Source: an uncultured Acidobacteriota bacterium
Lineage (GTDB): Bacteria > Acidobacteriota > CAIWXX01
Direction of reading: 5' to 3'
Assembly: GCA_903916735.1 (NCBI GenBank)
Contig: CAIWXX010000119.1
Span: 1-34,548, forward strand
DNA: 34,548 nucleotides
Part shown: piece by piece, positions 3,775-30,473 of the stretch
How positions within the stretch are numbered: position 1 is the first letter of the stretch
Layout: each line of letters opens with the position of its first letter
Program-made: the position numbers and the translations under genes
Notes under the pieces: model-generated
Databases searched by the model: none
What the model was told of the DNA's origin: nothing
What the model saw: only the letters and a program-made list of their open reading frames with translations

Positions 3775-5478
3775 CTATTTCACTGTGAAATTCACCGCAT
3801 TGCTCGAAGTACCGTTGACGGCCACGGTCACCGCGTACGTCCCATTCGCCACTTTTGGAATTGTCACCTTCAGGCTTGTTGTATTCGCCTTAGTGATGTT
3901 CTTGACCTTCTTCGTGCCGAAGTACACAACATCCTTTTTCTTGTCGGTTGAGAAACCAGTTCCGTAAATTGTCGCGGACGATCCGGCCTTACTTGTCTTA
4001 GACGTGACGTTGGTGATTGTCGGGCCGGATCCGGTGCCGCTGACGGTGATCGTGGCTGTGGCGCTGTTGGTTTGCCCACAAGTATTCGACAAGCGCACCC
4101 AAAAGCTCGTCGTGGTCGTGAGCGCTCCGGTTGAATAGGAATCGGCGTCGGTTCCAACAGTGTGGCTCGTGTATGGGTAGGTGCCCTGATACCACTGATA
4201 GTGAAGAGGCGCCATGCCGACCGCAACCACAGCCAAAGTCGCACTATCGCCATTCCCGATCGTCTGATTTTGGGGATCGGTCGTGATCGACGGCGAATCG
4301 CACCCGGGCTCGAAGCTGACAACGATGATGTGGCCCGCAACCGCTTTGCTGATGACATACGAGAGGGTAGCGGGCATGGCGACACTATTGTCGATGATCG
4401 AAGCAACCCGGTATCCGGCGTCTGGAGTGATGTTGACCGTCGCACTGCCGCCAACCGCGACCGGTTGCACAGCCGGACTCACGCTGCCGTTGCCTCCGGA
4501 GACCGACGCCCTGACTTCGTACCCGAAGAGGGCGAGGCTGTGATACGCGCTGCCTCCCGAGGCAATCGCCACATACTTGTGGCCTGTGGGTGGCGAAGCC
4601 TGCCCCTTGGAATTGCTCCCCCACCCGACGATGCTGCCGTCCGGCTTGAGGGCGAGGCCGTGGGCGTAGCCCGCCGCGATGGCCACGTAGCCGTAGTCTG
4701 TCGGCGAGTCGATCTCGCCGTTTCCATCAAATCCCCATCCCACGATGTAGCCGAGATTATTCAGGGCGAGGCCATGATAGTAGCCGGCCGCGATGGCAAT
4801 GTACTGACCCGATGGCGGTGTGTTGAGACCGTAGGAGGTGTCCCCCCAGACTGCGATCAAGCCATTCGACCTGAGGGCGATCCCGTGGTGGCCACCTGCG
4901 GCGATGGCCACGTAGTCGTTATCAGTTGGTGGCGTACCTAGGCCGTAGGAAGTGTCCCCCCAGACCACGATGCTGCCGTCCGATTTGAGGGCGATACTGC
5001 AGTCATCACCAGCCGCAATGGCGACATACTGGCTACCGGTCTGCGGGTTCGTCTCGCCATAGGTATTGTCTCCCCATCCCACGACGCTCCCATTGGACTT
5101 CAGGGCGAGACTGTGGCGGTTGCCCGCGGCAATGGCCACGTAGTTAGTGCCCGTCGGCGCGTTCCTCTGGCCGTAGACGTTGTTCCCCCAAGCTTCGATG
5201 CTGCCATCAGACCTGAGGGCGACGCTGTGATAGCCGCCCGCGGCGATGGCCACGTAGTTGTTGTTGGTTGTCGGAGGGGAGCCCTGGTGGTAGGTATTCG
5301 CTCCCCAACCAGCGATCCATCCGGATCCACCCATCGCACTTGCGGAAGCCTGGGGCTGGAGGGTGTCATCCGCCGGTTGTTCAGCATTGCCGCATTGGGA
5401 ACGCACTGGGCTGAGCAATAAAACCACCGCGCAAGACAAGACTAGCGTGAAAATCAAGAAAATAGAATTCTTCTTCAT
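3775..5478 (-). CDS. Secreted RCC1-repeat protein with InlB-type, Ig and IPT/TIG domains
   Basis: This 567-residue exported protein starts at MKKNSIFLIF (AAAGGAG Shine-Dalgarno seven bases upstream) with a signal peptide of about 27 residues. Residues about 45-335 carry seven RCC1-type blades of about 40 residues, each with the pattern YVAIAAG-x-HSLALKSDGSIVGWG. This predicts a seven-bladed propeller. Next come a bacterial InlB-type repeat (VSGGNGSVSP to VSFEPG, about 338-405), an Ig-like domain (ITTDPQNQTIGNGDSATL to TITVSG) and an IPT/TIG domain (SGPTITNVTSKTSKAGSSAT to the final VNFTVK). The last domain is nearly identical to the end of the protein at 10562-12313. RCC1 repeats in secreted bacterial proteins usually mediate binding. 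About 300 bases upstream lies the duplicated operator block. Confidence 0.85.
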   Translation of the reverse strand: MKKNSIFLIFTLVLSCAVVLLLSPVRSQCGNAEQPADDTLQPQASASAMGGSGWIAGWGANTYHQGSPPTTNNNYVAIAAGGYHSVALRSDGSIEAWGNNVYGQRNAPTGTNYVAIAAGNRHSLALKSNGSVVGWGDNTYGETNPQTGSQYVAIAAGDDCSIALKSDGSIVVWGDTSYGLGTPPTDNDYVAIAAGGHHGIALRSNGLIAVWGDTSYGLNTPPSGQYIAIAAGYYHGLALNNLGYIVGWGFDGNGEIDSPTDYGYVAIAAGYAHGLALKPDGSIVGWGSNSKGQASPPTGHKYVAIASGGSAYHSLALFGYEVRASVSGGNGSVSPAVQPVAVGGSATVNITPDAGYRVASIIDNSVAMPATLSYVISKAVAGHIIVVSFEPGCDSPSITTDPQNQTIGNGDSATLAVVAVGMAPLHYQWYQGTYPYTSHTVGTDADSYSTGALTTTTSFWVRLSNTCGQTNSATATITVSGTGSGPTITNVTSKTSKAGSSATIYGTGFSTDKKKDVVYFGTKKVKNITKANTTSLKVTIPKVANGTYAVTVAVNGTSSNAVNFTVK

Positions 5479-5702
5479 GGGTTTGCTCCTTTTGACTCCT
5501 CTCATCCTGAAGTAGAACGTTTGAGGGTGAGAAACTTCACAGGTTCCGTCGCGGCCATCTTGGTCGCAGCGGACGTGCCAAAGGCGATCAAAAGACAAGC
5601 GATCCTTCGCACTATTCCATTACTCCTTCTATTCATGACATGAGTACCACTGCAATGCCGATGCCACGTGATGAGTTGAGTCCGGCGAAAAATGGGCCTC
5701 TC

Positions 5703-10561: not shown

Positions 10562-12313
10562 TCACTTCACCGTGAAAGTGAATGCATTGCTTGTGACGCC
10601 ATTGACCAGAACCGTAACGGCGCACGTCCCTTTCCTCACTTTCGGAATCGTCACCTTCAGGCTCGTCGTCTTTACCTTGCTGATGTTCTTGACCTTCTTC
10701 GTGCCGAAGTAGACGACATCTTTCTTCTTGTCGGTTGAGAAACCGGTTCCGTAAATTGTCGCTGACGATCCTGCCTTGCTCGTCTTGGACTTGATGCTGG
10801 TGATCGTCGGGCCCGAGATGGTTGAGCCGGTGACGGTGATCGTGGCCGTCACGCTGTCGGCGCCGGCGAGGTTGCAGCCGTTTGTGACGCGCGCCCAGTA
10901 ACTGGTTGTGGAGAACAAGGCGGGCGTCGTGAAGCTATAAGAATCGGCGCTGGCCGGTGAGTGCGTGTCGCCGCTCGGGCCCTGATACCATTGATCTGTG
11001 AAAGGCGCGGTGCCACCTGCAATAACCGTCAATGTCGCTGTTTGCCCGCTGCTGATCGTCTGGCTTTGCGGCTGTATGACGATCGAGGCGGCTGTGCAGG
11101 CATCAGATACTCCAATCTGCCCGGTTTTCACACATGGTGTCCCCTCGACTGTGGCCGTCACCGTCCAGGTGAATGTGCCTGCATGAGAGTAGCTGTGATG
11201 AGCGTTCGACTGGAATGCGTGCAGACTGCCGTCACCGAAGTCCCAATCCCACATAATGGGTATGGACTTGACCAGCCGGAAGCCGAGAGACGGATATGAT
11301 GATACATCCGGGTACGTATAGCCGCGTGAGGCTGATCGACAAGCGCTGGGGTTGTTGGCGTAGTGACCTCCGCGAGCGATGCGGAAGGTGCCGGATGCAG
11401 GACCTGTGTAGTCAGTGACCGTGCCGGAGGGATAGCCGCTTTGCCAATCCCAGCACCATTCATCTGCGTTTCCGTGCACGTCTCTCAGATTCCATGGATT
11501 AGAGGATAGCGTTCCGACCTCGTGTGTCGTGCCACTGCTATTCCCACAGTACCATGCGACCCCCATCAGACTAAATAGAGCCGTGGTACATGAACTGCAG
11601 GTGGAGCTGCCATAATACTGTTCATTCACTGAGAACGGACCGGTTGTGCCCGCGCGTGCAAAGTACTCCCACTCGCCTTCCGTCGGCAGGCGATAACCAT
11701 CGGCCGTCATATCGAGGTAGATGGTATTGTTATTGTTGTAGTTGCTCGAATCGATGGGAGTCGTCTTGGTGCTATTGGTGTAGTAGCAACGATTAAATCC
11801 CCGCTGCACCGAAAGCAGGTTTGCGAACAACACCGCCTCGTACCAGCTGACCGACTCCACTGGATTGGCCGGCCATGGGTGACTAAAGCTCTTTGCGGGC
11901 AGCGTCGGCTGCAGGAATCGGAGGTTATCCCACGATGCCTGAGAAACCTCGGTTTCCATGACTGCCAGGTTGCGTGTGAGGATGTGCGTGAACTGTGATT
12001 CGTCGGCGCCGCTGTTGCGGCACGCCTCACCGGATGGCGAGCCTTGCCTGAAGCCGCCGGGACCGGTCGCGGGGGCGATGTAGAGACTGCCGACAATAGA
12101 GTCATTCCCGAAGAAGGTCCCGGGCGCAATGGAGAACATCCCATCGAACGGCACTGGCAGGCCCGTTTGGGCGTTTGCAGGCACGTTGGCGTTGCAGCCT
12201 GTCGCGGCCGATTGGATATTGCCGGACTGAGCCGGTTCCACTTGTCCGGCTGCAATCGGCGTGAGTGCATAACACATCGCCATGGCACAGGCGAGAATAA
12301 GTGCGCGTTTCAT
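10562..12313 (-). CDS. Secreted SUMF1-fold (FGE-like) protein with PKD, Ig and IPT/TIG domains
   Basis: This 583-residue protein starts at MKRALILACAMAM (AAGGAG ten bases upstream) with a 24-residue signal peptide. Residues about 40-330 are a formylglycine-generating-enzyme/SUMF1 fold: MFSIAPGTFF, NPVESVSWYEAVLFANLL, YRLPTEGEWEYFARAG, WNLRDVHGNADEWCWDW, ARGGHYANN, and the closing LGFRLVK. The two redox cysteines of true FGEs are not in place: GGHYANNPSACRSASR has one cysteine in a shifted position. A binding or structural role is therefore more likely than sulfatase activation. Then follow a PKD domain (WDWDFGDGS), an Ig-like domain (IVIQPQSQTISSGQTATL) and an IPT/TIG domain that matches the end of the RCC1 protein almost residue for residue. 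Confidence 0.85.
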   Translation of the reverse strand: MKRALILACAMAMCYALTPIAAGQVEPAQSGNIQSAATGCNANVPANAQTGLPVPFDGMFSIAPGTFFGNDSIVGSLYIAPATGPGGFRQGSPSGEACRNSGADESQFTHILTRNLAVMETEVSQASWDNLRFLQPTLPAKSFSHPWPANPVESVSWYEAVLFANLLSVQRGFNRCYYTNSTKTTPIDSSNYNNNNTIYLDMTADGYRLPTEGEWEYFARAGTTGPFSVNEQYYGSSTCSSCTTALFSLMGVAWYCGNSSGTTHEVGTLSSNPWNLRDVHGNADEWCWDWQSGYPSGTVTDYTGPASGTFRIARGGHYANNPSACRSASRGYTYPDVSSYPSLGFRLVKSIPIMWDWDFGDGSLHAFQSNAHHSYSHAGTFTWTVTATVEGTPCVKTGQIGVSDACTAASIVIQPQSQTISSGQTATLTVIAGGTAPFTDQWYQGPSGDTHSPASADSYSFTTPALFSTTSYWARVTNGCNLAGADSVTATITVTGSTISGPTITSIKSKTSKAGSSATIYGTGFSTDKKKDVVYFGTKKVKNISKVKTTSLKVTIPKVRKGTCAVTVLVNGVTSNAFTFTVK

Positions 12314-12473
12314 CTTGATTGCTCTCCTTCGTTGTTTGTTGCGAATCATCATCTCAGGTTCAGGTTCTACCCTTTGAACCTGCATATGCGTCATCTCATG
12401 CATTTCTTTCTGTCACCAAATAGAACGTGCGAAGAGCGAAATTTTCACAAAGGGAGTTTTTTTAGAAATTTCC

Positions 12474-12888: not shown

Positions 12889-13683
12889 TCAAGGGATGAT
12901 CGCGAATTGGTATTCCTGATGCAGTTTTTCTTGACCGTCCTTGTACCCGGTGACGATCACAGTCATCGGGCCCGGATGAATGGATGATCCTGGAATGGCA
13001 AGTGAAAAGCCGCCGAAGGATTTGGACGGTCGGAGCTCATCCACGGTCCAGAGAATCCGGCCCGATCCATCTCTGAGAGTAGCCTGGAAGTGTTGGAGGC
13101 TTTGAAGATCGGTCATGGTAGCAAGCTGCAAGAGTATGAGCGGATTGGAAGCACTCGCTTCAGGCACTCGGCCTTCGGAGCGTACAGCCCCGAAGAGGGT
13201 CAGTATTTGTATGTCGCTGATTGGCTGATTGATTTCTCCGGTGTTGATTCGCAATCTGCGGTTCTCGACGAGTCCGAGCCATGCGGGATAGAGGAGCAGT
13301 AGGATCGAGGCGGCTGCGCCGAGAGCCGCCCAAGAAGGAATGGAAAATTGTTTGTGCCACCATCGGTCAATTTTTGCTTTCTCCCTTGCCGGCGGGACTG
13401 TCGCGAAGATTCGTCTCTTCACCGCTTCGCTCACCTCGGGAATCTCATTCTCAGGAAGGCCGGCAACTTCGCTCATCAAACACGCAATGTGTCGTTCTTC
13501 CAGCATAACCCCCTGGCACTTCCCACAAAGGCCGGCATGCCGTGCGATACTCGCCATGGCATCCTCTCTGAGATTCCCATGTACGAAGGACAGGAGAGTC
13601 ATCTCATCAGGACAGGGCCCGGCTTCGGCGGAAATCTGCTGTGCAAGCCAACTTTCCAGTTCGTCGATTTCTTGATCACTCAT
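12889..13683 (-). CDS. Membrane anti-sigma factor with zinc-binding (ZAS-like) N-terminus
   Basis: The 264-residue product starts four bases before the end of the sigma gene (ATGA overlap), so the two are translationally coupled. The N-terminus carries the zinc anti-sigma signature: His49-x3-Cys53-x2-Cys56 (HAGLCGKC), preceded by an acidic helix. A single transmembrane helix spans about residues 115-138 (IPSWAALGAAASILLLLYP). The C-terminal periplasmic part (about 140-264) is beta-rich (LQHFQATLRDGSGRILW, MTVIVTGYKDGQEKLHQEY). Such proteins sequester their ECF sigma factor at the membrane until a signal triggers release, often by proteolysis. The signal here is unknown. Confidence 0.85.
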   Translation of the reverse strand: MSDQEIDELESWLAQQISAEAGPCPDEMTLLSFVHGNLREDAMASIARHAGLCGKCQGVMLEERHIACLMSEVAGLPENEIPEVSEAVKRRIFATVPPAREKAKIDRWWHKQFSIPSWAALGAAASILLLLYPAWLGLVENRRLRINTGEINQPISDIQILTLFGAVRSEGRVPEASASNPLILLQLATMTDLQSLQHFQATLRDGSGRILWTVDELRPSKSFGGFSLAIPGSSIHPGPMTVIVTGYKDGQEKLHQEYQFAIIP

Positions 13684-14282
13684 TCCGGCCGCTCCTCTTC
13701 GCTTGCAGAACCAAACTTCTTCCGCAGCTCACGCATGGCATTCTGGATGTGACTCCTGACCTGATCCGGCTCGGTATTTGTCAGCTCGCTGATCTCTTGA
13801 TACGAATTGCCGGATAGTTTCAGCAAAATGCATGTCCTCCGATTCTCTTCCATCGACTCGATGTGCACGCGTATCTCCTGCCAGCACGCGTGCGTCTCTC
13901 GTTTGGAAAGTGGAAGGTCACCCTGTTTGACGGCCATTCCTTGCCGTTCGCGCAACTGCTCTTCGTAGTAAAGCCACCTGACACGGTCCTTGCGTTTCTG
14001 ATCCCGGTAAAGGTTGGCGCAAATGGTGCACAGCCATGGGAAGATGTCACCATCAAGTTCTCTTCCTCCAGCAAGCGCGGACATAGTTTTTAGCATGGTC
14101 TCTGAAAGGAGATCCTCCGCCAGACTCTTCTCACGCGCAAGACGCAGGGCAAAGGCAAAGACACGTCGCGAGTATTTCTCATAGACCCACAGAAATCGCT
14201 CACGTACGGGATCGCGCCGTGCGATTCCGGGAACCGATGATCGCTCCAAACTCTCTTCATCCATAAGAATAACGTCCGACAC
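13680..14282 (-). CDS. ECF-type RNA polymerase sigma factor
   Basis: The 200-residue protein shows sigma-70 region 2 at about residues 27-95 (FLWVYEKYSRRVFAFALRLA, AEDLLSETMLKTM, FPWLCTICANLYRDQKRK) and region 4 at about 135-190 (MEENRRTCILLKLSGNSYQE, ISELTNTEPDQVRSHIQNAM). There is no region 1 or 3, as expected for ECF factors. GTG at 14282 gives the longest form; the ATG at 14264 (MDEESLER) is an alternative. Neither has a clear Shine-Dalgarno. The promoter at 14356-14384 supports either. The gene overlaps the anti-sigma gene and is divergent from the PDZ-TPR-CHAT gene, a likely target. Confidence 0.88.
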   Translation of the reverse strand: MSDVILMDEESLERSSVPGIARRDPVRERFLWVYEKYSRRVFAFALRLAREKSLAEDLLSETMLKTMSALAGGRELDGDIFPWLCTICANLYRDQKRKDRVRWLYYEEQLRERQGMAVKQGDLPLSKRETHACWQEIRVHIESMEENRRTCILLKLSGNSYQEISELTNTEPDQVRSHIQNAMRELRKKFGSASEEERPE

Positions 14283-14355
14283 GCCAATTACTCACACGCA
14301 GGAAATCAGGTGAGCTTCGATTTCATAGGAGGCAAAACAATCCACCTCAATTCTG

Positions 14356-14384
14356 CTTATAGCTCCACACATCCGCTTTGTCAA
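14356..14384 (-). promoter_or_regulatory. Sigma-70-type promoter for the sigma/anti-sigma operon
   Basis: On the minus strand TTGACA (14379-14384) and TATAAG (14356-14361) are 17 bases apart, close to consensus. The start site would be near 14349, leaving a leader of about 70-85 bases. This suggests housekeeping transcription rather than ECF autoregulation. For the plus-strand gene I could not pick a convincing promoter between 14385 and 14597. Confidence 0.65.
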
Positions 14385-14597
14385 TGCACGGGGGCATCGT
14401 TAGCGGGCCTCACGGATTTACCGGCGTCCGTTCAGACACAGGGTCTATTTTGCGCCGGCGTCATGATACACTGACACGAAAGAGCCCGGCATTCCTTGTG
14501 CCCGGCAATAGAAGGGCACGGACTTGCATGGTTCGTGCGCGAGGGTACCGATCATGATAGGCTTGTCGAGTCATCGGCAAGTTTGGGAGTTGAGAGA

Positions 14598-17500
14598 ATG
14601 AATAGCAACATGAAGTATTCTCCTCGCATGGTCTCAGGCTCAAGCATGCTCCTTGCTTTGATGCTGGTGTCTTGCTCCTTGGTCGCGGCTGAAGATGCGC
14701 CCATCGGCGTTGTCGTGGAGAACGTGTGGAAGGGATCGGCGGGTGAGAAGGCTGGGCTTACGCCAGGCGATCGATTGTTCTCCTGGGAGCGCCCTGCCAA
14801 CTCTCCTGCAAACCCCGAGTCAGCTGAAGGGGCGTACAGGTCCACTTTCGATTGGATGTGGGTGGAGATGGAGCAAGGCCCACGCGGCTCTGTAAAAATC
14901 AATGGCGAAAGAGATGGAAAGGCCTGTATTTTTGAAATTCCCATGGGAAGTTGGAAGATCGAGGTTCGTCCAAATTTGTCGGAGCGGTTCCTGAAGATTT
15001 ATTTGGAAGGCAAAGCGGCAATCGACGCGAATGATATCGAAAAGGGTGCTGGGTTGTGGCGAGATATTGTAAAGGGTGCCGATGCGGATGGGGACATGCG
15101 CCTGGCTTCCTGGTTGGATCTTCAAATCGGACATGCATACGATACTGCAGAGCGACCGAAGGAAGCCCAGGCTGCATTTAATGAGGCGATGAAGGCGGCG
15201 CAGCAATCAACCGATGCGGTTGCGCAGAGTTTCGTGCTGGATGCGATCGGAGAGTCATTTGAGGAGCAGAACGACATTGCAAAAGCCAAGGATGCGTATG
15301 ATGCGGCGAGGGCGTTTCGAGAGGAGAAATCGAGCGAGAGCTTAGGCCTGGCTGTGAGTCTGGTGAACCTCGGGTACTTGGAGGATCGCCATGGGGACTC
15401 GGGGAGAGCTGAGGCGTTATACAGCCGTGCACTGGCGATCCGGGAGAAACTCGCACCCGATAGTCTTGATGTCGCTCAAGCATTGGTCCGGCTGGGTTCG
15501 GTGGCCGAGGATCGAGGAGATCTGGATCAAGCCGAAGAGAGGCTTCTAAGCGGGCTGGCGATTCAAGAGAAACTCGCGCCGGACAGCATTGTTATGGCCT
15601 CCACGCTGAACAACCTCGGGATTACTGTTTCAGACCGAGGGGATTTGGATTCGGCTGAGGCATACTACGAACGAGCCTTGGCGATAAGCCAGAAACAATC
15701 ACCCGACAGTATCTCCGTTCTCCGCTCTCTGTGTAATCTTGGAGTGGCATTCGCGGAGCGCGGTAACCTTGCTTCGGCGGAGGCTGACTTCAGGCGAGCG
15801 CTTGCGATGGCCGGGAAGCTTGCACCCAACAGCTATTTCATGGTCTCCTGCCTGAACAATTTGGGAGCATTGGCCATACAACGAGGTGATCTCGCGGCAG
15901 CGGAGACGTCGCTGAAAAGTGCCCTCGCCATCCAGGAGAAGCTGACGCCTGAGGGCGTGCCAGTGGAGTTTGCATTGAATAACCTGGGAGCGGCCGCCCG
16001 CGCTCGCGGGGACCTTGCTGGAGCCGAGTCTTATTACAAGCGTGCTCTGGCAATTCAAAACCGGTCCGCACACGATCACCTGAACTCGGCTATTTTTTTG
16101 AGCAATCTTGGAGAGATAGCAGATGATCGTGGGGATATAGTGACGGCCGAGACGTACTATCAACATGCCCTGACGATACGCGAAAAACTCGCGCCCGGCA
16201 GTCTCGCAATGGCGACTTCCTTGTTCAAGATTGGAGAGGTGGCGCGCGAACGGGGAAAACTGATAATCGCAGAGAAGTATTATGGCCGCGCTTTGGTGAT
16301 TCGCGAGAAACTGGCGCCTGGAAGCCTATTCGAAGCAGAACCCTTAAATGCTTTAGCCGTCCTTTTCAATCAGACAGGTCGCCCATTACTTGCGTCGAAG
16401 TACTTTACGCGGTCAATTGATGCGCTGGAGTTCCAAGAAGGGAAACTCGGAGGATCGCAAGAGAAAAAGCCCGGCTTTGCCGCGAACTACATCCATTATT
16501 ACCAGGACTATATTGAATATCTCATCGCACAGGGCCGGCAGGCCGAAGCGTTTCACGTGCTCGAGAGATCCCGTGCACGAGGTTTTATTGAAATGCTCGC
16601 CGAACGAGACCTCGTCTTCACCGACATTCCTCGTGAATTGTCCCGTGAACAAAAGAAAATTGCTTTCGAGTACGACCAGGTTCAGTCGAAGCTCGGGGAT
16701 CTCAACCCCGTCAAAGAGCATTCGCAGGCCGAGACGCTTCTCGAACGGCTGCGTCAGTTGCGTGGCAAACGCGAAGAGATCAGGGAGCGGATTCGTGAGA
16801 AATCACCGCGGTTGGCGTCTCTGAAGTACCCGAAGCGGCTCACGCTAACGGAGGTGCAGAAGATCCTGGATCCAGGGACGGTGTTGCTTTCTTATTGCGT
16901 CACCAGGAATAAAACATTCCTTTTTGCCGTTCGCTCCGGCTTGCAGAGCTCTTCCCAACAAACAGCGGCACCTCAGAAGTTATTCGTTTACACCGTACCG
17001 ATCCATGCCGATGCGCTACGGAAGCAAGTGGATGCATTTCGAAATCTGATTCAAGATGCTGAAAAGGGAATAGCCGACCAGTCTGCGCTGATCGAGCCCG
17101 GCTCGAAGTTATTCGATGAGTTGATCAGGCCGGCTGAGCCGATGATTTCACCAGCCGACCGTTTGCTTATCTGCCCTGACGGCCCGCTGCATGTTCTGCC
17201 TTTCGCCGCCTTAATCCAAGCGACCGGCAATGCGCCCGATGTGCCGCCGCAGTACCTCGTCCAATGGAAGCCCCTGCACATTGTCCTTTCAGGTACCGTC
17301 TATTCGGAGCTTATAGAAACGCGCGGTCGCGTGTTGGGGAAAGCTCCCACGACACAACTCGTCGCGTTCGCCGATCCGAAGTACCCGTTATCCTGGCATG
17401 AGAGCCCTGATGGCATTTCGGATCCTCAAGCTCAATGGTTATTGACTCGTGGTCTCAATTTACAGCCGCTGCCTGCGACTCGAACGGAAGTTGAGGGGAT

Positions 17501-18041
17501 CGCGTCGGTTTTTCAGGACAAGATCGTTTCCTATATCGGTGAGGAGGCCACTGAAGAGCGCGCAAAGACGATTGGCAGCGATGTTCGCTATATTCATTTC
17601 GCATGCCATGGGTTTTGTGACGAACAATCCCCCCTCGACTCATCACTCGCCCTTACTGTTCCCGAACGACAGACACCGGGGCAGGACAACGGCTTTCTCC
17701 AGGCGTGGGAGATTTTTGAAAAGGTCCGAATCCGAGCGGATCTCGTCACGCTATCGGCTTGCAAGAGCGCCTTGGGGAAGGAATTGGGGGGCGAGGGACT
17801 CATCGGACTTTCGCGAGCCTTTCAGTATGCCGGGGCTCGATCCGTGCTGGCCTCGCTTTGGGATGTCTCTGATCAGACCACAGCCGAATTGATGAGACGT
17901 TTTTACGGGTACCTCAAAGCGGGGAAGACCAAGGATGAAGCTCTCAGAGCCGCTCAGATCGACCTCATCACGTCCCCAGCCAGGTTCACAGCTCACCCCT
18001 ACCATTGGGCCGCTTTCGAGCTCATCGGGGACTGGAAATGA
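14598..18041 (+). CDS. Exported PDZ-TPR-CHAT protein (caspase-like protease)
   Basis: This 1147-residue protein begins MNSNMKYSPRMVSG (GGGAG upstream of ATG 14598; an earlier TTG in frame lacks support). A signal peptide or lipoprotein signal runs to about residue 32 (LALMLVSCSLVAAED). Residues about 33-115 form a PDZ domain (APIGVVVENVWKGSAGEKAG, LTPGDRLFSW). About 160-600 hold some eleven TPRs, eight of them regular 41-residue units with RGDL-AE-YY-RALAI-EKLAP. A charged coiled segment (about 655-735) leads into a CHAT domain from about 745 to the end. The catalytic dyad is present: His1004 in HFACHG and Cys1055 in LSACKS. CHAT proteases cut after specific residues in partner proteins. The sigma/anti-sigma pair is divergent, with a 315-base gap. 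Confidence 0.85.
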   Translation: MNSNMKYSPRMVSGSSMLLALMLVSCSLVAAEDAPIGVVVENVWKGSAGEKAGLTPGDRLFSWERPANSPANPESAEGAYRSTFDWMWVEMEQGPRGSVKINGERDGKACIFEIPMGSWKIEVRPNLSERFLKIYLEGKAAIDANDIEKGAGLWRDIVKGADADGDMRLASWLDLQIGHAYDTAERPKEAQAAFNEAMKAAQQSTDAVAQSFVLDAIGESFEEQNDIAKAKDAYDAARAFREEKSSESLGLAVSLVNLGYLEDRHGDSGRAEALYSRALAIREKLAPDSLDVAQALVRLGSVAEDRGDLDQAEERLLSGLAIQEKLAPDSIVMASTLNNLGITVSDRGDLDSAEAYYERALAISQKQSPDSISVLRSLCNLGVAFAERGNLASAEADFRRALAMAGKLAPNSYFMVSCLNNLGALAIQRGDLAAAETSLKSALAIQEKLTPEGVPVEFALNNLGAAARARGDLAGAESYYKRALAIQNRSAHDHLNSAIFLSNLGEIADDRGDIVTAETYYQHALTIREKLAPGSLAMATSLFKIGEVARERGKLIIAEKYYGRALVIREKLAPGSLFEAEPLNALAVLFNQTGRPLLASKYFTRSIDALEFQEGKLGGSQEKKPGFAANYIHYYQDYIEYLIAQGRQAEAFHVLERSRARGFIEMLAERDLVFTDIPRELSREQKKIAFEYDQVQSKLGDLNPVKEHSQAETLLERLRQLRGKREEIRERIREKSPRLASLKYPKRLTLTEVQKILDPGTVLLSYCVTRNKTFLFAVRSGLQSSSQQTAAPQKLFVYTVPIHADALRKQVDAFRNLIQDAEKGIADQSALIEPGSKLFDELIRPAEPMISPADRLLICPDGPLHVLPFAALIQATGNAPDVPPQYLVQWKPLHIVLSGTVYSELIETRGRVLGKAPTTQLVAFADPKYPLSWHESPDGISDPQAQWLLTRGLNLQPLPATRTEVEGIASVFQDKIVSYIGEEATEERAKTIGSDVRYIHFACHGFCDEQSPLDSSLALTVPERQTPGQDNGFLQAWEIFEKVRIRADLVTLSACKSALGKELGGEGLIGLSRAFQYAGARSVLASLWDVSDQTTAELMRRFYGYLKAGKTKDEALRAAQIDLITSPARFTAHPYHWAAFELIGDWK

Positions 18042-18197: not shown

Positions 18198-18707
18198 TTA
18201 TATGAGATCCGCGTCTGATGCCATTTCAATAATCCGATGCCCGAGGAGATCGACGGAGATGAGCACTTGCGGGGTGACGGGGCCTCCAGGAGCAGTATCT
18301 CCGGGTTGAATGCCGATGATGAGGACATCGGCCCCGATGCTTTCTTTCAGATATCGCAGAAGCATCGGGAGCGGTATTCGGTGTGTCGAGACATCATCAT
18401 CGACGATCCGACTCGGGTCGACAAAGAAAATTTCACCCGGGGGTTTCCCTCCGGCGACGCTGTCAAGGATCAGCACATGCGTTGGATGGTAATCTCTGAT
18501 CTCATGTGTGCAATTTTCCGGGACTTCAAACCCGATGATGATTTTAAGGCGAGCAGGATGCTTATTCTCGAGTTTTTGCAGGATGCTCTCCGCGCACAAC
18601 ACACCAGCGGCATCATCGGCTCGATCCTTATTGCCTATTCCTAGAATCACAAGTCGTGTGGCTGCTTCAAACGCTTCTTCGAGTTTATTCTGCCAGGCGA
18701 TGGTCAT
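18198..18707 (-). CDS. Hydrogenase maturation protease (HycI/HyaD family)
   Basis: The 169-residue enzyme has the signature LGIGNKDRADDAAG near the N-terminus (family GxGNxxxxDDxxG), then ILDSVAGGKPPGEIFFVD and STHRIPLPMLLRYL, which supply the usual nickel-sensing Asp and His, and a last LIIGIQPGDTAPGGPVTP. These proteases remove a C-terminal tail from [NiFe]-hydrogenase large subunits after nickel insertion. The large subunit two genes upstream has a 41-residue tail beyond its last metal-binding motif, a fitting substrate. It follows the ferredoxin gene by 83 bases and closes the operon. No strong ribosome-binding site is seen before ATG 18707. Confidence 0.85.
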   Translation of the reverse strand: MTIAWQNKLEEAFEAATRLVILGIGNKDRADDAAGVLCAESILQKLENKHPARLKIIIGFEVPENCTHEIRDYHPTHVLILDSVAGGKPPGEIFFVDPSRIVDDDVSTHRIPLPMLLRYLKESIGADVLIIGIQPGDTAPGGPVTPQVLISVDLLGHRIIEMASDADLI

Positions 18708-18790
18708 TTGCTAGCCATCAAGACCATTGGTTGATATTTGATTCAGTTCCGATGGATGGTCGAAGGCGAAATCAAGCTCATGAGGAAATT

Positions 18791-19213
18791 CTATGATGTC
18801 GGAGGTTTCGGGCCGGCATCGGCAACCTTCGGTTTGAGTACAGCCCGCACAAAGACCCACGACTTTTTCAGAACATGCCGGTTGAAATCGGCGTTCTCAT
18901 ATCTCATGTCAATATCCATGGCCTTGACTGGAGTGACAGGGCAGGAATCGACGCACTGAGCGCAATGGATGCATCGGTCGTTGTGGATGATCATTTGAAA
19001 GCGTTTTTCGGCTTCATTGACGGCCGTGATCTCGATCGCTTCCGCCGCACAATCTCGCTCACAGGCACGGCACGCAATGCAGAGCTCAGGATGGAGAAAA
19101 GGAGTCCCACGGAAATCCTTGGGAACTCCAAGTTTCTTGTATGGGTATTCAACGGTTGCGGGTTTCTTGAATATGTGCCTTAGTAATTCAGGGACAAAAG
19201 CCGCCGGTCTCAT
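18791..19213 (-). CDS. 2x[4Fe-4S] ferredoxin subunit of hydrogenase (EchF/NuoI-like)
   Basis: The 140-residue protein starts at MRPAAFVPELL (GGGGG upstream at about 19220; a longer form is less likely). After an N-terminal segment typical of this family (LLRHIFKKPATVEYPY) come two complete cluster motifs: CIACRACERDC and CIHCAQCVDSCP. Both have all four cysteines, so two [4Fe-4S] clusters are expected. It would pass electrons from a soluble donor to the small subunit. The C-terminus is longer than in minimal ferredoxins (FNRHVLKKSWVFVRAVLK). The gene lies 70 bases downstream of the large-subunit gene. Confidence 0.85.
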   Translation of the reverse strand: MRPAAFVPELLRHIFKKPATVEYPYKKLGVPKDFRGTPFLHPELCIACRACERDCAAEAIEITAVNEAEKRFQMIIHNDRCIHCAQCVDSCPVTPVKAMDIDMRYENADFNRHVLKKSWVFVRAVLKPKVADAGPKPPTS

Positions 19214-19283
19214 GATATGAACCCCCAGGTGAATTGACAGCGAAGGTAGAGGAAATTCTTGACGCCGCTCGTTGTTCTCTTCT

Positions 19284-20486
19284 TCAGAATGGCCATATAC
19301 CATTCCTTTTCGGAGGATCTTTCTTGAATCGCTCGTTTGCCTTATTTCTCAGTTCGCTCATTCTGACTGTCTTAGCGTCGCCACTCCGTGCGTCGACGAG
19401 CTCCACGGATCTCTCAGCGCAACAGATGCACGGGTCGATGGCGGCGAAGATGAGAGGAATATCGGCGATGAAGCCGCTTTTGAGCATTTCTATTGTCGCG
19501 GCGTAATTACCCAGCGTCGGCGCTCTGACCTTGAGCCGTTCCGGCTTGTCGGTTCCGTTGGAGATAATGTAGTGGATATTTTCACCGCGGGGAGCCTCGT
19601 AGCGGCTGATCACCTCATTGGGCTTCGCTTTTCGCGGGGCCTTGACGGTGATATTTCCCGATGGGAGATTTTTCATCAGGAACTCAATGATCTTATATGA
19701 TTCGAGGAGCTCCTTCACGCGGACAACCGTCCGGCCCAAAACATCACATGTGTCCGCCGTGCCGACGTCGAAAGGAACTTCGTCATAGACGGCATAAGGA
19801 TCATCCTTGCGGACGTCGCGAGTGATGCTGGAGGCCCGGGCGGTCGGCCCGACAGCGCACAGAGCAACGGCGCTTTCCTTGGACAGGTAACCCACACCGG
19901 CCAGTCTGGCGACAAAGGTCGGTTCACTGGCGCCGATCTTGAGATAGAATAGGCTCCGTTCTCTCAACGTATCCAGGGAATCGAGGATCTTTTTCTTTTG
20001 TGATTCGTCGATATCGCGCCGGACTCCACCAATGCTGTTGATCGAGTAGTGGACGCGATTGCCGGAAATGATCTCCAAAAGATCCATGACGATCTCTCGA
20101 TCTCTCCATGTATACATAAAGAACGAATCAAATCCGGCTTCATGGCCGGCGATGCCGAGCCAGAGCAGGTGGCTGTGGACCCGTTCCAGCTCGGAGACCA
20201 GCGTTCTGATGTAAAGGCCGCGCTTTGGCGGGATCAAATCCATGAGCATTTCGACGCCTTGAACGTAGCAGGTGGCATGTGAGTGGGAACAGATGCCGCA
20301 TATACGCTCCATGAGATAGATGTTTTGAACCCAGGTTTTTTCCTCAGCGAGTCTCTCCAGGCCTCGATGGTTATAGCCAAGTCGTAGGTCGGCGTTCTGA
20401 ATCACTTCTCCATCGACCGTCATGCGCAGGCTGATGGGTTCCTTGAGCGCCGGGTGTTGAGGTCCAATCGGGATTTGAATTTTCAT
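19284..20486 (-). CDS. [NiFe]-hydrogenase large subunit, group 4 (EchE/NuoD-like)
   Basis: This 400-residue catalytic subunit has both nickel-binding motifs: RICGICSHSH (Cys63, Cys66) near the N-terminus and DPCICCAER (Cys353, Cys356) near the C-terminus, so it should be an active hydrogenase and not a NuoD-type electron carrier. The opening IPIGPQHPALKEP and LGYNHRGLERL place it in the Ech/energy-converting group. A 41-residue tail after Arg359 suggests proteolytic maturation, in line with the HycI-type gene in the operon. Its ATG overlaps the last codons of the NuoC-like gene by four bases. It should reduce protons with ferredoxin-type electrons or oxidise H2 in the reverse direction. Confidence 0.9.
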   Translation of the reverse strand: MKIQIPIGPQHPALKEPISLRMTVDGEVIQNADLRLGYNHRGLERLAEEKTWVQNIYLMERICGICSHSHATCYVQGVEMLMDLIPPKRGLYIRTLVSELERVHSHLLWLGIAGHEAGFDSFFMYTWRDREIVMDLLEIISGNRVHYSINSIGGVRRDIDESQKKKILDSLDTLRERSLFYLKIGASEPTFVARLAGVGYLSKESAVALCAVGPTARASSITRDVRKDDPYAVYDEVPFDVGTADTCDVLGRTVVRVKELLESYKIIEFLMKNLPSGNITVKAPRKAKPNEVISRYEAPRGENIHYIISNGTDKPERLKVRAPTLGNYAATIEMLKSGFIADIPLIFAAIDPCICCAERSVELVDARSGDAKTVRMSELRNKANERFKKDPPKRNGIWPF

Positions 20487-20956
20487 GATTTCCCTCCAGG
20501 AATCGTCTCGACCGGCCGTTCAAATTTCCAGTCTTTTCGAAGCGGGTGATTTGCGGGCGGCCATCCATCCGGAAGAAGAAGCGGCCGTGCATCCGGGATG
20601 TGATCGACAATAATGCCGAACATATCCTGGAGCTCCCGCTCATAGAGAATCGCTCCTGGAATGACGTTGGTGATGCTCTCGATGCGCGGGTCGGCACGCG
20701 GCACGGCCGTCCTAACATTGAGGCATGTCCTTGTGTCGGCGAAGTGATAGACGATTTCGAAAAAATCGCCCTTGTCCACGCCGCTGATAGTGGCCAGGTA
20801 GGTCATGTCGAATTTGTCTCTCAGGATGGTGATGACAGGAATGAGAGAGTGGGAGTCGATCTTTAGAAAAATGCGCCGTGTCGATGGATTTGTGATGTCT
20901 CCGGCTTTTTCGGCCAGGGCGCTCTTGAGCGATTCTATGATCTCAGCATCGTTCAT
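20483..20956 (-). CDS. Hydrogenase 30-kDa-type subunit (EchD/NuoC-like)
   Basis: The 157-residue product starts at MNDAEIIESLK (GGGGA five bases upstream) and matches the NuoC/HycE-N family: MTYLATISGVDKGDFFEIVY, YERELQDMFGIIVDHIPD, and the closing LPDGWPPANHPLRKDW. The ERExxDMFG and PLRKDW motifs are diagnostic. It is a structural subunit without cofactors that joins the large subunit to the small subunit. Its 3-prime end overlaps the large-subunit start by four bases. Confidence 0.85.
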   Translation of the reverse strand: MNDAEIIESLKSALAEKAGDITNPSTRRIFLKIDSHSLIPVITILRDKFDMTYLATISGVDKGDFFEIVYHFADTRTCLNVRTAVPRADPRIESITNVIPGAILYERELQDMFGIIVDHIPDARPLLLPDGWPPANHPLRKDWKFERPVETIPGGKS

Positions 20957-20972
20957 GTGTTCCCCAATTAAA

Positions 20973-21392
20973 TTAGAGTTTCCCGAGGAGTTTGATGACG
21001 CCATCCATTATGGCATCCGGTCTTGCAGGGCAGCCGGGCACATAGACATCGACCGGCAGAACCTGATCGATGCCTCCCAAAATATTGTAAGCGCCCCTGT
21101 AAACACATCCGGATAACGCGCAGGCGCCAACCGCGATGACGAATTTGGGATCGGGAACCTGATTGTAAATTCGTAGCAGCCTGTCCTTGATCTGCAGGGT
21201 CGCGGGGCCTGTGGCGATGATGACATCGGCATGCCGGGGCGTGGCCTTGAGGAGGATTCCGAAGCGCTCAAGGTCAAAGCGAGGTGTCAGAGCGGCGACA
21301 ATTTCAATATCGCATGCATTGCAGGCGCCGGAATTGAGGTGCAAGATCCATGGGGATTTGATCCTTGACCAGCGAATCAAACGGTTCAGCAT
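20973..21392 (-). CDS. [NiFe]-hydrogenase small subunit (EchC/NuoB-like)
   Basis: The 139-residue subunit begins MLNRLIRWSR; ATG 21392 has AAGGAG five bases upstream, whereas the in-frame GTG six bases earlier overlaps that site. Cluster ligands are visible: SGACNACDIE (Cys24, Cys27), GACALSGCVY and PGCPARP. This is the NuoB-type proximal [4Fe-4S] cluster arrangement and short size of Ech small subunits. It heads the operon. Upstream lies a promoter-like element, then a divergent gene, so no membrane-subunit gene precedes it. Confidence 0.88.
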   Translation of the reverse strand: MLNRLIRWSRIKSPWILHLNSGACNACDIEIVAALTPRFDLERFGILLKATPRHADVIIATGPATLQIKDRLLRIYNQVPDPKFVIAVGACALSGCVYRGAYNILGGIDQVLPVDVYVPGCPARPDAIMDGVIKLLGKL

Positions 21393-21442
21393 CTTCACTC
21401 CTTGTGGTGTGCGCTATCAAGCGTAAAATTTTTATCAAATTA

Positions 21443-24027: not shown

Positions 24028-27000
24028 TCAATTTTCAAGACCTGAACCCAACCCTATCACATCCTGCACTGCTTTTCTAAGCTCATCGATGGTATAGGGC
24101 TTGGCAACTACTCCGCTGAACCCGTGTTTTTTGTACTTGGCGATAACCGGGTCATCGGCATACCCGCTGGAAACGATGGCCTTTGCCCCGGGGTCTATCT
24201 TGAGCAGTTTCCTGATGGTCACTTCGCCACCCATGCCCCCGGCTATGGTCAGGTCCAGGATGGCTACGCTGAAGGGATGGCCCGATTCCAGGGCTGCTTT
24301 ATACAGTTTAATGGCCTCGGCGCCGTCTTCGGCAAACTCGACATCCTGATAGCCGATGTGCTTGAGTATGCGGCCGGCTACCTTCCTTACCTCCTGCTCG
24401 TCATCCATCACCAGGATCCTGGCCTTGCCGGCATGTTTGATGGTCATTTTCTCAGCCTGCTCTGGGGTAACCGTTTCCATGGAAGCGGGCAGGTAGAGGC
24501 AAAAGGTCGAGCCGGAGCCCAGCTCAGATTCAACGCTGATATGGCCGTCGTGATTGCGCGCAATAGAGAAGGAGGTGGCCAGCCCCAGCCCGCTGCCCTG
24601 CTGTTTGGTGCTGAAAAAGGGATCGAATATCTTACCCAGGTGATCACCGGGTATCCCGGTACCGTGATCCGCCACCGCGACCCTGATGTAATCCCCTGCT
24701 TTGATAGGCAGTCCCCTGCCTAAGCTCTGCGTTTCGCTGAGGGCTATATTTTCGGCGAGGAGTTCTATGCTTCCGCCTGTGGGCATGGACTGCTGGGCGT
24801 TGATGACCAGGTTATGTATGACCTGGCTTACCTGGCCCGCGTCTATCTTGGCATGCCACAGGTCAGCGGGTATGGAGAATTGACATATTACATTGGAGCC
24901 GCGCAGGGCAAAGCCGGCGGTATCCTTGAGCAGTCCCGCTAAAGAAGTTAATTTCGTTACCGGCGCCCCGCCTTTGGAGAAGGTCAGCAGTTGCACGGTC
25001 AGGTCCTTGGCCCGCAGCGATGCCTTTTCCGCCTGCTCCAGGCTGTTAAAAAGTTCACTGCCGGGCGCCGCCTCCGTCCTGGCCAGGCTGATATTGCCCA
25101 GGATGGCGGTCAGGATGTTATTGAAATCGTGGGCGATGCCGCCGGCCAGCATGCCGATGGCTTCCAGCTTTTCCACCCGCTGCTGCTCCTCCTCCAGTCG
25201 CTTGCGGTCGGTGATGTCGGTCAGGAAATTCATGGTTGCATGCCTGTCCTCCCAGGGAATAAGCGTTGCGCTAACCTCCGCCCACTTGATATCCCCCGGC
25301 TTGCTGATAAGGCGAAAAGTATATTTGTTTGGAATGTCCATGCCCTTTAAACGCTGACTATAGCGATCGGCCACCATCTGGCGGTCAGCGGGATGAATAA
25401 ATTCGATAAAATGCCTGGTGGTGAGCTCTTCCCGCGAATAGCCAGTAAGTGCTTCAATCCTGCCGTTGGCGAATTTGAGCATACCATCCACTAAAATGAC
25501 AATGGTCTCCTGGGCGCTCTCCACAACCATCCGGTACTTTTCCTCGCTCTCCCGCTGCGCCTTCTCCGCCCCCTTGCGCTTGGTGATATCGGTGAAAGTG
25601 CCGACTACGCCCTCGAGCTTGCCCACCTCATCGAGGAGCGGAGCGGCATTGACACTGATCCAGGAGACCGAGCCGTCCGGCTGCACGGCGCCCATCACGA
25701 CGTCCTTCACTGCACGCTTCTCCTTCATGGCGCGGGGACCGGCCATCTCTTCCGCCGGCATCGGTGTGCCGTCGGGGCGCAGCATCTCCCACTTCGGGCT
25801 ATCGTAGGTGCGCCCTTCGATCTGCGAATGTGCAAGCCCCAGGATACTCTCTGCCGCAGAGTTGGCGCTGATGATTTGCCCATCCGTGGCGATCAGGACG
25901 ACACCCTCGGACATTGTCTCGAACAGGCTGCGCAAACGCGCCTCTCTCTCCCGCAGCGCTTCTTCTGCCTGCTTGTGATTGGTGATGTCCTTGATCACCC
26001 CGTCGTACGATACGAGCCTATTCTCAGAATCAAACTGCAGGATGGGCGTATCTCTTATCCAGCGGATCTGCCCGTCTTTTAGCACAATCCGGTGTTCGAT
26101 GGGTGGGATGTTCTCTCCCGCCAGGATTCTCTGAACGCGCTCGAGGACCTGGCCGCGCTCCTCCGCCACTACCATGCTTATCCAGAGATTGGGATCGTCC
26201 GCAAACTCCTCTTTCGTGTATCCCGTCACTGCCTTGCACGCCTGGCCGTGCGTTGTCTCCACGGCCTGCCCATCCTGTAATCGCACCGTATAGAGATAGT
26301 CGGTCAACCCCTCGGTAATCCGCTGGTAGCGTGCCTCGCTCTCCTTCAGCGCCTCCTCCGCTTTCTTGCGCTCGGTGATGTCCTTCAGTACAGAGAGAAA
26401 ACACTGCTGCCCGCCAATTCTGATTGTCTCTACTGAAAGCAATCCTAAACGCGCCTCGCCTGACTTCATACAGAATTCGTATTCTGAGTTATGGATTTTC
26501 CCCTGGTCACGCATCATTTCTAACATCCTGACGCGAGAACCTGGTTTTGCCCAAATAGTCATCTCAATTGAGCTGAGGCCAATGACCTCCTCTCGAGAAT
26601 ATCCGGTGAAACGCAGAAAACTGTCGTTAACATCTATATATCGCCCATCCGCCAATGTGCTAATGGCCATTGGGATAGGAGCTGATTTGAAGGCTTTAGA
26701 GAACTTCTCCTCGCTCTCCTTCAGCGCCTCCTCCGCTTTCTTGCGCTCGGTGATATCTTGTAACGAGCCGACCAGACGGACAGGCCGCCCGCCCAGTGCC
26801 ATTTCGGCGACTCCACGCGCTATACATACCCGTGTCTCGCCGTCTTTCCGAATGGCCCGGAGTTCAAGCGTGTAAGGGGTTCCATCGGCGACAGCGACTT
26901 CGACGGCCTGCCGCAGGCACGCCATGTCGTCGGGGTGATAGAAGGCTTGTTGCTCGGCGAAACTCGGCGCTCCTTCCTGCGGGTCCCGCTGGAAGATTCG

Positions 27001-27192
27001 GAACAACTCGTTGGACCAGGTCACCGTGTCCGTTGCGATATCCCATTCCCAGCTTCCGACATGGGCAATACCCTCGGTCCGCGCAAGCATTATCTGTTCA
27101 CGCAGTAGCATTTCCTCCGCCTGCTTGCTCCCGCTGATGCCCGCCACTGACCCAACAATTCCCTTATTAGCCGGCTGCTTCTTCTTGACCAT
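24028..27192 (-). CDS. Soluble five-PAS hybrid histidine kinase with receiver domain
   Basis: The 1054-residue protein has no transmembrane helix. Five PAS/PAC units lie at about 35-150, 160-275, 285-405, 415-540 and 550-665, most ending in DITERKKAEEALKESE-type linkers. Next come HisKA with GGIAHDFNNILTAI (phospho-acceptor His in H-D-F-N-N), HATPase_c (NLVINAQQSM, HGTGIPGDHLGKIF, FFSTKQQGSGLGL), and a C-terminal receiver with DDEQ, ILDLTIAGG (phosphorylated Asp), SSGYA and KPY. It lacks any HTH, so its output must go to a partner, perhaps via phosphotransfer. GGAG lies eight bases before ATG 27192. It is divergent from the TonB receptor gene. The signals sensed are unknown. Confidence 0.9.
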   Translation of the reverse strand: MVKKKQPANKGIVGSVAGISGSKQAEEMLLREQIMLARTEGIAHVGSWEWDIATDTVTWSNELFRIFQRDPQEGAPSFAEQQAFYHPDDMACLRQAVEVAVADGTPYTLELRAIRKDGETRVCIARGVAEMALGGRPVRLVGSLQDITERKKAEEALKESEEKFSKAFKSAPIPMAISTLADGRYIDVNDSFLRFTGYSREEVIGLSSIEMTIWAKPGSRVRMLEMMRDQGKIHNSEYEFCMKSGEARLGLLSVETIRIGGQQCFLSVLKDITERKKAEEALKESEARYQRITEGLTDYLYTVRLQDGQAVETTHGQACKAVTGYTKEEFADDPNLWISMVVAEERGQVLERVQRILAGENIPPIEHRIVLKDGQIRWIRDTPILQFDSENRLVSYDGVIKDITNHKQAEEALREREARLRSLFETMSEGVVLIATDGQIISANSAAESILGLAHSQIEGRTYDSPKWEMLRPDGTPMPAEEMAGPRAMKEKRAVKDVVMGAVQPDGSVSWISVNAAPLLDEVGKLEGVVGTFTDITKRKGAEKAQRESEEKYRMVVESAQETIVILVDGMLKFANGRIEALTGYSREELTTRHFIEFIHPADRQMVADRYSQRLKGMDIPNKYTFRLISKPGDIKWAEVSATLIPWEDRHATMNFLTDITDRKRLEEEQQRVEKLEAIGMLAGGIAHDFNNILTAILGNISLARTEAAPGSELFNSLEQAEKASLRAKDLTVQLLTFSKGGAPVTKLTSLAGLLKDTAGFALRGSNVICQFSIPADLWHAKIDAGQVSQVIHNLVINAQQSMPTGGSIELLAENIALSETQSLGRGLPIKAGDYIRVAVADHGTGIPGDHLGKIFDPFFSTKQQGSGLGLATSFSIARNHDGHISVESELGSGSTFCLYLPASMETVTPEQAEKMTIKHAGKARILVMDDEQEVRKVAGRILKHIGYQDVEFAEDGAEAIKLYKAALESGHPFSVAILDLTIAGGMGGEVTIRKLLKIDPGAKAIVSSGYADDPVIAKYKKHGFSGVVAKPYTIDELRKAVQDVIGLGSGLEN

Positions 27193-27391
27193 ATAAGATT
27201 CTCCATCTGTTAAGCATATCCTTTGCCTCCAGTAGCCTGACAGAAATAACCGGTAACACCCCTATCCGCGAATAAGCATACACCTATTGCGACAAAATCA
27301 AAATGGTTTCGGAGCCTCTGCGGCACGGCTCGCGAGGATGCCGAGCCGTCATGCCGGGTCTATCGAGACTATCTGATGGCTTGCCCGTGAG

Positions 27392-27419
27392 AGCCGGGGG
27401 AGGGCAACCTCCTCCGGTT
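27392..27419 (+). other. Strong hairpin with GCAA tetraloop, resembling a group II intron domain V
   Basis: Twelve base pairs (AGCCGG/CCGGTT, GGGAGG/CCTCCT, with G-T wobbles) close a GNRA loop GCAA. The flanking GTGAGAGCC and CGGTT signatures resemble group II intron domain V, including the AGC triad. The usual two-base bulge is missing and no intron-encoded reverse transcriptase is near, so at most it is a relic. It is not followed by a T-run, so it is not a normal terminator. The rest of 27193-27391 shows nothing else clear. Confidence 0.3.
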
Positions 27420-27441
27420 ACTCGACGAGCCCGGTATATAC

Positions 27442-27469
27442 TTGACATTTTCTTTTTGTAAAGTATATT
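27442..27469 (+). promoter_or_regulatory. Promoter for the TonB-receptor gene
   Basis: TTGACA at 27442-27447 (perfect -35) and TATATT at 27464-27469 are 16 bases apart. The start site would be near 27476, leaving a leader of about 100 bases. It is one of the best promoters in the window. Confidence 0.65.
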
Positions 27470-27577
27470 AATACTCTTTGCGTGTACGTTACCTCAAAAG
27501 CTTTAGTAACTTTCTAGGAATGTTAGCCAAGGGCAGTATTTATCAAGACATAAAGAAAAGAATGGAAGGAGTCTCAA

Positions 27578-30316: not shown

Positions 30317-30473
30317 TTACCGATGCAGTTCACTGACGGAGCTTTTGTCGTCTTTCCACGGCCAAGCAGGCTGGGCTGTCGTACCCGGACACCGGCCTTT
30401 TTCAGCGCACATCAGTTCAAGCGCCCAACGTGGAAAGGAAAATGGGGTCTTTTTCTTGAGCGGTTTTATCAAA

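Follow-up and report, generated by a model that had tools for sequence, protein, structure and literature searches.

The window analysed here is a stretch of 34,548 nucleotides from an uncultured Acidobacteriota bacterium, and is contig C119 of the source genome (5.4 Mb, 183 contigs, 98.7% complete). Three genes are located at positions 12889-18041 (Table 1). The genes for an ECF sigma factor and its anti-sigma factor overlap by 4 bp, and this pair is divergent from a gene for a protein with a signal peptide, a PDZ domain, TPRs and a CHAT domain. The arrangement had been described in a first-pass annotation of the window, and is confirmed by Pfam, NCBIfam and AlphaFold.

Table 1. Positions of the genes and features of the sigma/anti-sigma/CHAT locus in the window.
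Feature	Positions	Strand	Basis
Class I (ZAS-like) membrane anti-sigma factor, 264 aa	12889-13683	-	HxxxCxxC, TM, AlphaFold, orthologue
Anti-sigma periplasmic β-sandwich (predicted), residues ~158-263	12895-13212	-	AlphaFold, pLDDT mostly 86-96
Anti-sigma transmembrane helix, residues 113-139	13267-13347	-	Hydropathy; AlphaFold helix 117-144
ECF sigma factor, 200 aa, GTG start	13680-14282	-	Pfam, NCBIfam
ECF sigma region 2, residues 34-100; region 4, residues 137-186
Candidate promoter of sigma/anti-sigma genes, TTGACA-17 nt-TATAAG	14356-14384	-	Read off sequence; weak evidence
PDZ-TPR-CHAT protein, 1147 aa, predicted exported	14598-18041	+	Pfam, AlphaFold, start-site context
N-terminal signal peptide (predicted), residues 1-34, possible lipobox LVSC	14598-14699	+	Hydrophobic N-terminus in relatives
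PDZ domain, residues 38-125	14709-14972	+	Profile match, predicted fold
TPR superhelix, residues 129-667	14982-16598	+	Pfam E 4e-58, AlphaFold
CHAT domain	17097-18032	+	Pfam PF12770, E 4e-68 and 5e-69
Catalytic His1004 (by alignment)	17607-17609	+	Invariant in relatives
Catalytic Cys1055 (by alignment)	17760-17762	+	Invariant in relatives

The sigma factor is of the ECF type, with only regions 2 and 4 in about 200 residues. Both regions score above the Pfam cut-offs (Sigma70_r2, E 2.8e-9; Sigma70_r4_2, E 5.5e-8), as does the NCBIfam model sigma70-ECF (TIGR02937). The orthologous pair in a relative (locus L036, genome G005) shows 47% identity for the sigma factor and 39% for the anti-sigma factor. 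The candidate promoter of the two genes is missing from a consensus scan because its final base is G.

The anti-sigma factor is assigned to class I (ZAS) from its overlapping gene downstream of sigma, its HxxxCxxC motif (H49-x3-C53-x2-C56) and its single transmembrane helix. It has no matches in Pfam, and no family model of Pfam or NCBIfam is above cut-off, the NCBIfam anti-sigma model giving a weak match (E 8e-4). In the AlphaFold model, N-terminal helices are followed by a long transmembrane helix and a C-terminal β-sandwich of about 100 residues. A fold search with the β-sandwich returned just generic Ig/cupredoxin-like matches, which were rejected as an identity for this domain.

The start of the CHAT gene is placed at an ATG with GGGAG upstream; a TTG at 14496 merely gives the longest open reading frame. 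A signal peptide is predicted in this protein and in most of its full-length relatives, with the type of sequence conserved and its letters divergent, and export of the window protein is probable. The PDZ domain falls under the Pfam cut-off for the window sequence alone. However, PDZ_6 is matched by all eight family members, a profile of the domain finds the PDZ domains of DegQ/DegP (E 1e-9) and RseP (E 5e-5) in the PDB, and AlphaFold gives a PDZ-like fold at high confidence. The CHAT domain scores 230 bits against a cut-off of 24, and its His/Cys dyad is invariant in two alignments, of 11 and 21 relatives. The first-pass annotation was thus correct on the intact dyad and on the numbering of Cys1055, and its N-terminal PDZ domain is supported. 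The periplasmic part that it gave to the anti-sigma factor is present in the predicted structure, but at about 120 residues its description as large was generous.

Several other genes of the window were noted. The reverse-strand gene at 10562-12403 encodes an exported protein that combines an FGE-sulfatase domain, Ig/PKD-like parts and a C-terminal TIG module. A similar gene (locus L006, 5804-7396, reverse strand) is found near the other PDZ-TPR-CHAT gene of the genome, and the TIG modules of the two proteins are almost identical. An RCC1-repeat protein (3775-5598) ends in the same TIG tail, which is possibly a surface-attachment tail or an additional partner. At 18198-21398, a hydrogenase maturation protease is located beside a ferredoxin-like protein and subunits of 49, 30 and 20 kDa that resemble those of complex I/group-4 hydrogenases. 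At 24028-31724, a multi-PAS hybrid histidine kinase is divergent from an outer-membrane β-barrel protein with a carboxypeptidase-regulatory domain, whose gene is followed by that of a β-lactamase-fold serine hydrolase.

The source genome has five CHAT genes and about 14 true ECF sigma factors (among 21 region-4 matches). A sigma/anti-sigma pair adjoins three of the five CHAT genes, those of the window and of contigs C46 and C49; the chance of three or more such linked genes is about 1.4e-4. C46 and C49 both carry sigma-anti-sigma-CHAT operons. The CHAT protein of C46 has a signal peptide and a C-terminal transmembrane helix, and the anti-sigma factor of C49 is among those CHAT-linked anti-sigma factors in which the β-domain is absent, bearing TPRs instead. 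The remaining two CHAT genes have no sigma gene nearby. The first, on C20, encodes the closest paralogue of the window protein, with the same PDZ-TPR-CHAT build, and also has no anti-sigma gene in its vicinity; the second, on C126, is divergent from a Ser/Thr kinase gene. Genes for M50 (site-2) proteases are present in the genome.

A CHAT profile scan over 84,980 species genomes gave 76 CHAT loci, around which sigma genes were detected with a home-made ECF profile. The density of sigma genes per 100 kb is 12.7 at distances below 1 kb, 7.3 at 1-2 kb and 0.6 beyond 6 kb, and 26 sigma genes were observed within 2 kb of the 76 loci, compared to 1.6-4.9 expected. The arrangements at these loci include sigma-anti-CHAT and CHAT-sigma-anti operons as well as convergent and divergent forms. 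Gene calls in these G+C-rich contigs are based on open reading frames, so a few starts are wrong. Two genomes of the order of the source genome were surveyed, and both have the triad, divergent in the window and convergent in the relative.

Variants of these arrangements were also seen. At four loci (L072, L076, L079 and L087), the CHAT gene converges on an ECF sigma gene, after which a transmembrane Ser/Thr kinase takes the place of the anti-sigma factor. Acidobacteria bacterium Mor1, which has at least 21 CHAT genes, has a sigma/anti-sigma pair followed by CHAT genes in tandem (L035/L089), and both CHAT genes encode a signal peptide and a C-terminal transmembrane helix. In two genomes of family f31 (G050 and G062), at least 21 CHAT genes per genome were scored, of 66 candidates, some of them in tandem, which is a striking expansion.

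A second sample took the best-scoring CHAT protein from each of 20 genomes across the Acidobacteriota phylum. Nearly all of these proteins have a hydrophobic N-terminus; a sigma gene is located within 1.1 kb in seven cases and within 2.1 kb in eight. Sigma linkage is therefore common, not universal, and many exported CHAT proteins have no sigma gene in their vicinity. According to the first-pass annotation, its proposal would be in difficulty if CHAT homologues in most genomes lacked the sigma pair. This is half the case, as about 35-40% of the CHAT genes in the phylum sample have a sigma gene within about 2 kb, and sigma-less paralogues such as those of C20 and C126 are common.

The linkage was also followed from the anti-sigma side. 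A profile built from 14 CHAT-linked anti-sigma factors was run over 247 Acidobacteriota genomes, and the best 40 full-length matches absent from the profile were taken. A sigma gene adjoins 38 of the 40, and a CHAT gene is located within 2.5 kb of 29. Five of the 11 loci without CHAT end at a contig edge; with flanks of at least 1.4 kb, CHAT is found beside 29 of 35. By orientation, 22 triads are sigma-anti-CHAT operons, 5 are convergent and 2 divergent. In comparison, among 20 weaker matches with similarity confined to the zinc/TM part (generic anti-sigma factors, used as control), sigma is found beside 18 and CHAT beside three (Fisher p 3e-5 for all loci, 1.5e-6 for uncut loci). The survey of co-occurrence called for in the first-pass annotation thus finds strong sigma enrichment near CHAT and CHAT as a near-constant neighbor of such anti-sigma factors.

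In a tree of the sigma factors, CHAT linkage is clustered yet spread over several ECF lineages, with 17 changes of the linkage label compared to 34.8 in shuffles, at least six being forced. The window sigma factor and its orthologue form a separate lineage in this tree. The window β-domain shows weak similarity to its counterpart in the main anti-sigma family (probability 59 and E 9e-5 in hhalign), with the similarity of the window anti-sigma pair alone below significance by hhalign, and the reverse search therefore applies to the window partly by analogy. The linkage of CHAT, sigma and anti-sigma genes is not due to chance.

The catalytic dyad is retained in 117 of the 118 CHAT domains in which both columns are readable. 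In many of the triad CHAT proteins, a signal peptide is combined with one C-terminal transmembrane helix and an Arg-rich tail behind it, as called by hydropathy-based heuristics, and others have lipobox-like N-termini. By the positive-inside rule, the C-terminal helix and the Arg-rich tail would place the TPRs and the CHAT domain in the periplasm, facing the periplasmic side of the anti-sigma factor. At a control locus (L202, 5995-9243), a sigma gene is located beside a gene for a single ZAS-TM-TPR-CHAT protein, a natural fusion of anti-sigma factor and CHAT. Both catalytic residues are replaced in this fusion and the fold is kept; therefore CHAT can occur on an anti-sigma factor without cutting.

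The three genes may form an envelope-to-nucleoid signalling module. The cytoplasmic helical domain of the anti-sigma factor is proposed to hold the neighboring sigma factor at the inner membrane, with its β-sandwich, which CHAT may contact or use as substrate, exposed to the periplasm and facing the exported CHAT protein. The TPR/PDZ part of the latter would meet a cue or a partner; a PDZ domain of the DegQ/DegP/RseP kind fits such envelope sensing. The CHAT cysteine protease would then cut or otherwise destabilize the periplasmic part of the anti-sigma factor, and an M50 site-2 protease, followed by a cytoplasmic AAA+ protease, would complete the breakdown and free the sigma factor. The conserved dyad suggests that the anti-sigma factor is cleaved. 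Moreover, dozens of relatives keep the three genes together, and the protease therefore probably controls the sigma switch. That CHAT cleaves or gates the periplasmic domain of the anti-sigma factor and so releases sigma is a proposal for which belief and doubt are about equal.

Placing CHAT on the input side of the sigma factor is the best-supported reading, since the CHAT-linked anti-sigma domain and CHAT itself are both predicted to be periplasmic, fusions carry CHAT on the anti-sigma factor itself, and in both precedents (Csx29 and DdvA, see below) CHAT is placed upstream of sigma. The reverse order would make CHAT an output, a periplasmic protease turned on by the sigma factor against other envelope proteins, for quality control, defence or self-destruction, with the anti-sigma factor sensing something else. 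Most triads are sigma-anti-CHAT operons, as in sigma autoregulons, and exported paralogues without sigma are common, both of which are in line with an output role. However, this role leaves unexplained the pairing of a single kind of periplasmic domain on the anti-sigma factor with CHAT across several sigma lineages, as well as the L202 fusion and the input-side precedents. In addition, a comparison of the sigma and CHAT upstream regions, for the window and for its orthologue, gave no convincing shared ECF-like promoter motif, a weak test. An output role is the main rival reading, and we consider it unlikely.

CHAT and the anti-sigma factor might instead form a sensor complex, equivalent to a split DdvA, in which CHAT binds without cutting. 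The L202 fusion, with its fold retained and its dyad lost, would suit such a complex, as would the solved DdvA structure, whose single chain comprises a transmembrane part, helical repeats and CHAT. The near-complete retention of the dyad would be superfluous for pure binding, however, and makes this arrangement quite improbable. The genes could also be neighbors through chance or local gene traffic, and functionally unlinked. The window genes are divergent, not co-transcribed, and C20 and many other CHAT genes have no sigma gene. Against this stand the decay of linkage with distance, the reverse search, the survival of linkage through rearrangement and the natural fusion, and for the family as a whole such an origin is very unlikely.

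Known systems resemble the window locus in part. The exported CHAT paralogues of Acidobacteriota (such as that of C20) have the same PDZ-TPR-CHAT build, without adjoining sigma and anti-sigma genes. The RseA-DegS-RseP sigma-E pathway has a membrane anti-sigma factor, a periplasmic PDZ protease and a site-2 protease. Counterparts of these are present by prediction, with a PDZ protein in the window that would face the periplasmic part of an anti-sigma factor, and a site-2 protease in the source genome. The catalytic type is different, a trypsin-like serine protease in the sigma-E pathway and a CHAT cysteine protease with TPRs in the window, and RseA-type domains were not found.

Structural matches to the window CHAT model found with Foldseek include separase, Csx29 and DdvA (E 2e-15 to 6e-15 for DdvA). 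Csx29 and DdvA are both confirmed by a search of the PDB with the CHAT profile, in which DdvA scores E 1.5e-8 and its His and Cys align with the dyad, whereas phmmer with the CHAT domain alone found nothing useful there. In type III-E Craspase, which the first-pass annotation overlooked, the TPR-CHAT protease Csx29 cleaves Csx30, the inhibitor of the ECF sigma factor CASP-sigma (PMC10028731). Protease, inhibitor and ECF sigma factor are thus encoded at one locus, as in the window. Craspase is cytoplasmic, whereas in the window a membrane protein of the ZAS type takes the role of inhibitor and the CHAT protein carries a predicted signal peptide. The window system was rejected as a Craspase: the 98.7% complete source genome has no RAMP (Cas7-11/gRAMP) match, and the Csx29 model scores 26.8 bits on the window protein against a cut-off of 300.

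DdvA of Myxococcus xanthus is reportedly the anti-sigma factor of DdvS. PDB entries 8rot and 8rw5, titled transmembrane anti-sigma factor DdvA, are deposited as a CHAT domain-containing protein, so the premise of the first-pass annotation, that the CHAT proteases known in detail are cytoplasmic, needs to be corrected. As in the window, an ECF sigma factor, a transmembrane anti-sigma factor and a CHAT domain after helical repeats are found, with the catalytic pair aligned. DdvA has anti-sigma factor and CHAT in one chain, as does the L202 fusion (ZAS, TM, TPR and CHAT beside sigma). In the window they are two proteins, with a β-sandwich on the anti-sigma factor and a PDZ domain on the CHAT protein. 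An antiphage island under DdvS control includes a type III-B CRISPR system (PMC12288465). Around the window triad no defence genes were recognized, with generic TPR matches alone.

In the literature searched, which includes few subscription papers, one pathway of a CHAT protease and a sigma inhibitor turned up, tied to CRISPR, and no description of an exported CHAT protease paired with an ECF sigma/anti-sigma pair was found. The kind is known from Craspase and DdvA; within this literature its two-protein, exported form is new. Tentatively, and with somewhat more doubt than belief, a widespread, unnamed ECF switch may operate in Acidobacteriota, in which exported CHAT proteases act in trans on membrane anti-sigma factors. 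If so, this common, CRISPR-free pathway with the protease outside the cytoplasm would be a new route for envelope or invader signals to transcription, and would provide compact protease-substrate pairs for tests in laboratory strains. DdvA would be the fused form of this switch, and Craspase its cytoplasmic counterpart, possibly originating from it, with an RNA-guided complex replacing the envelope signal.
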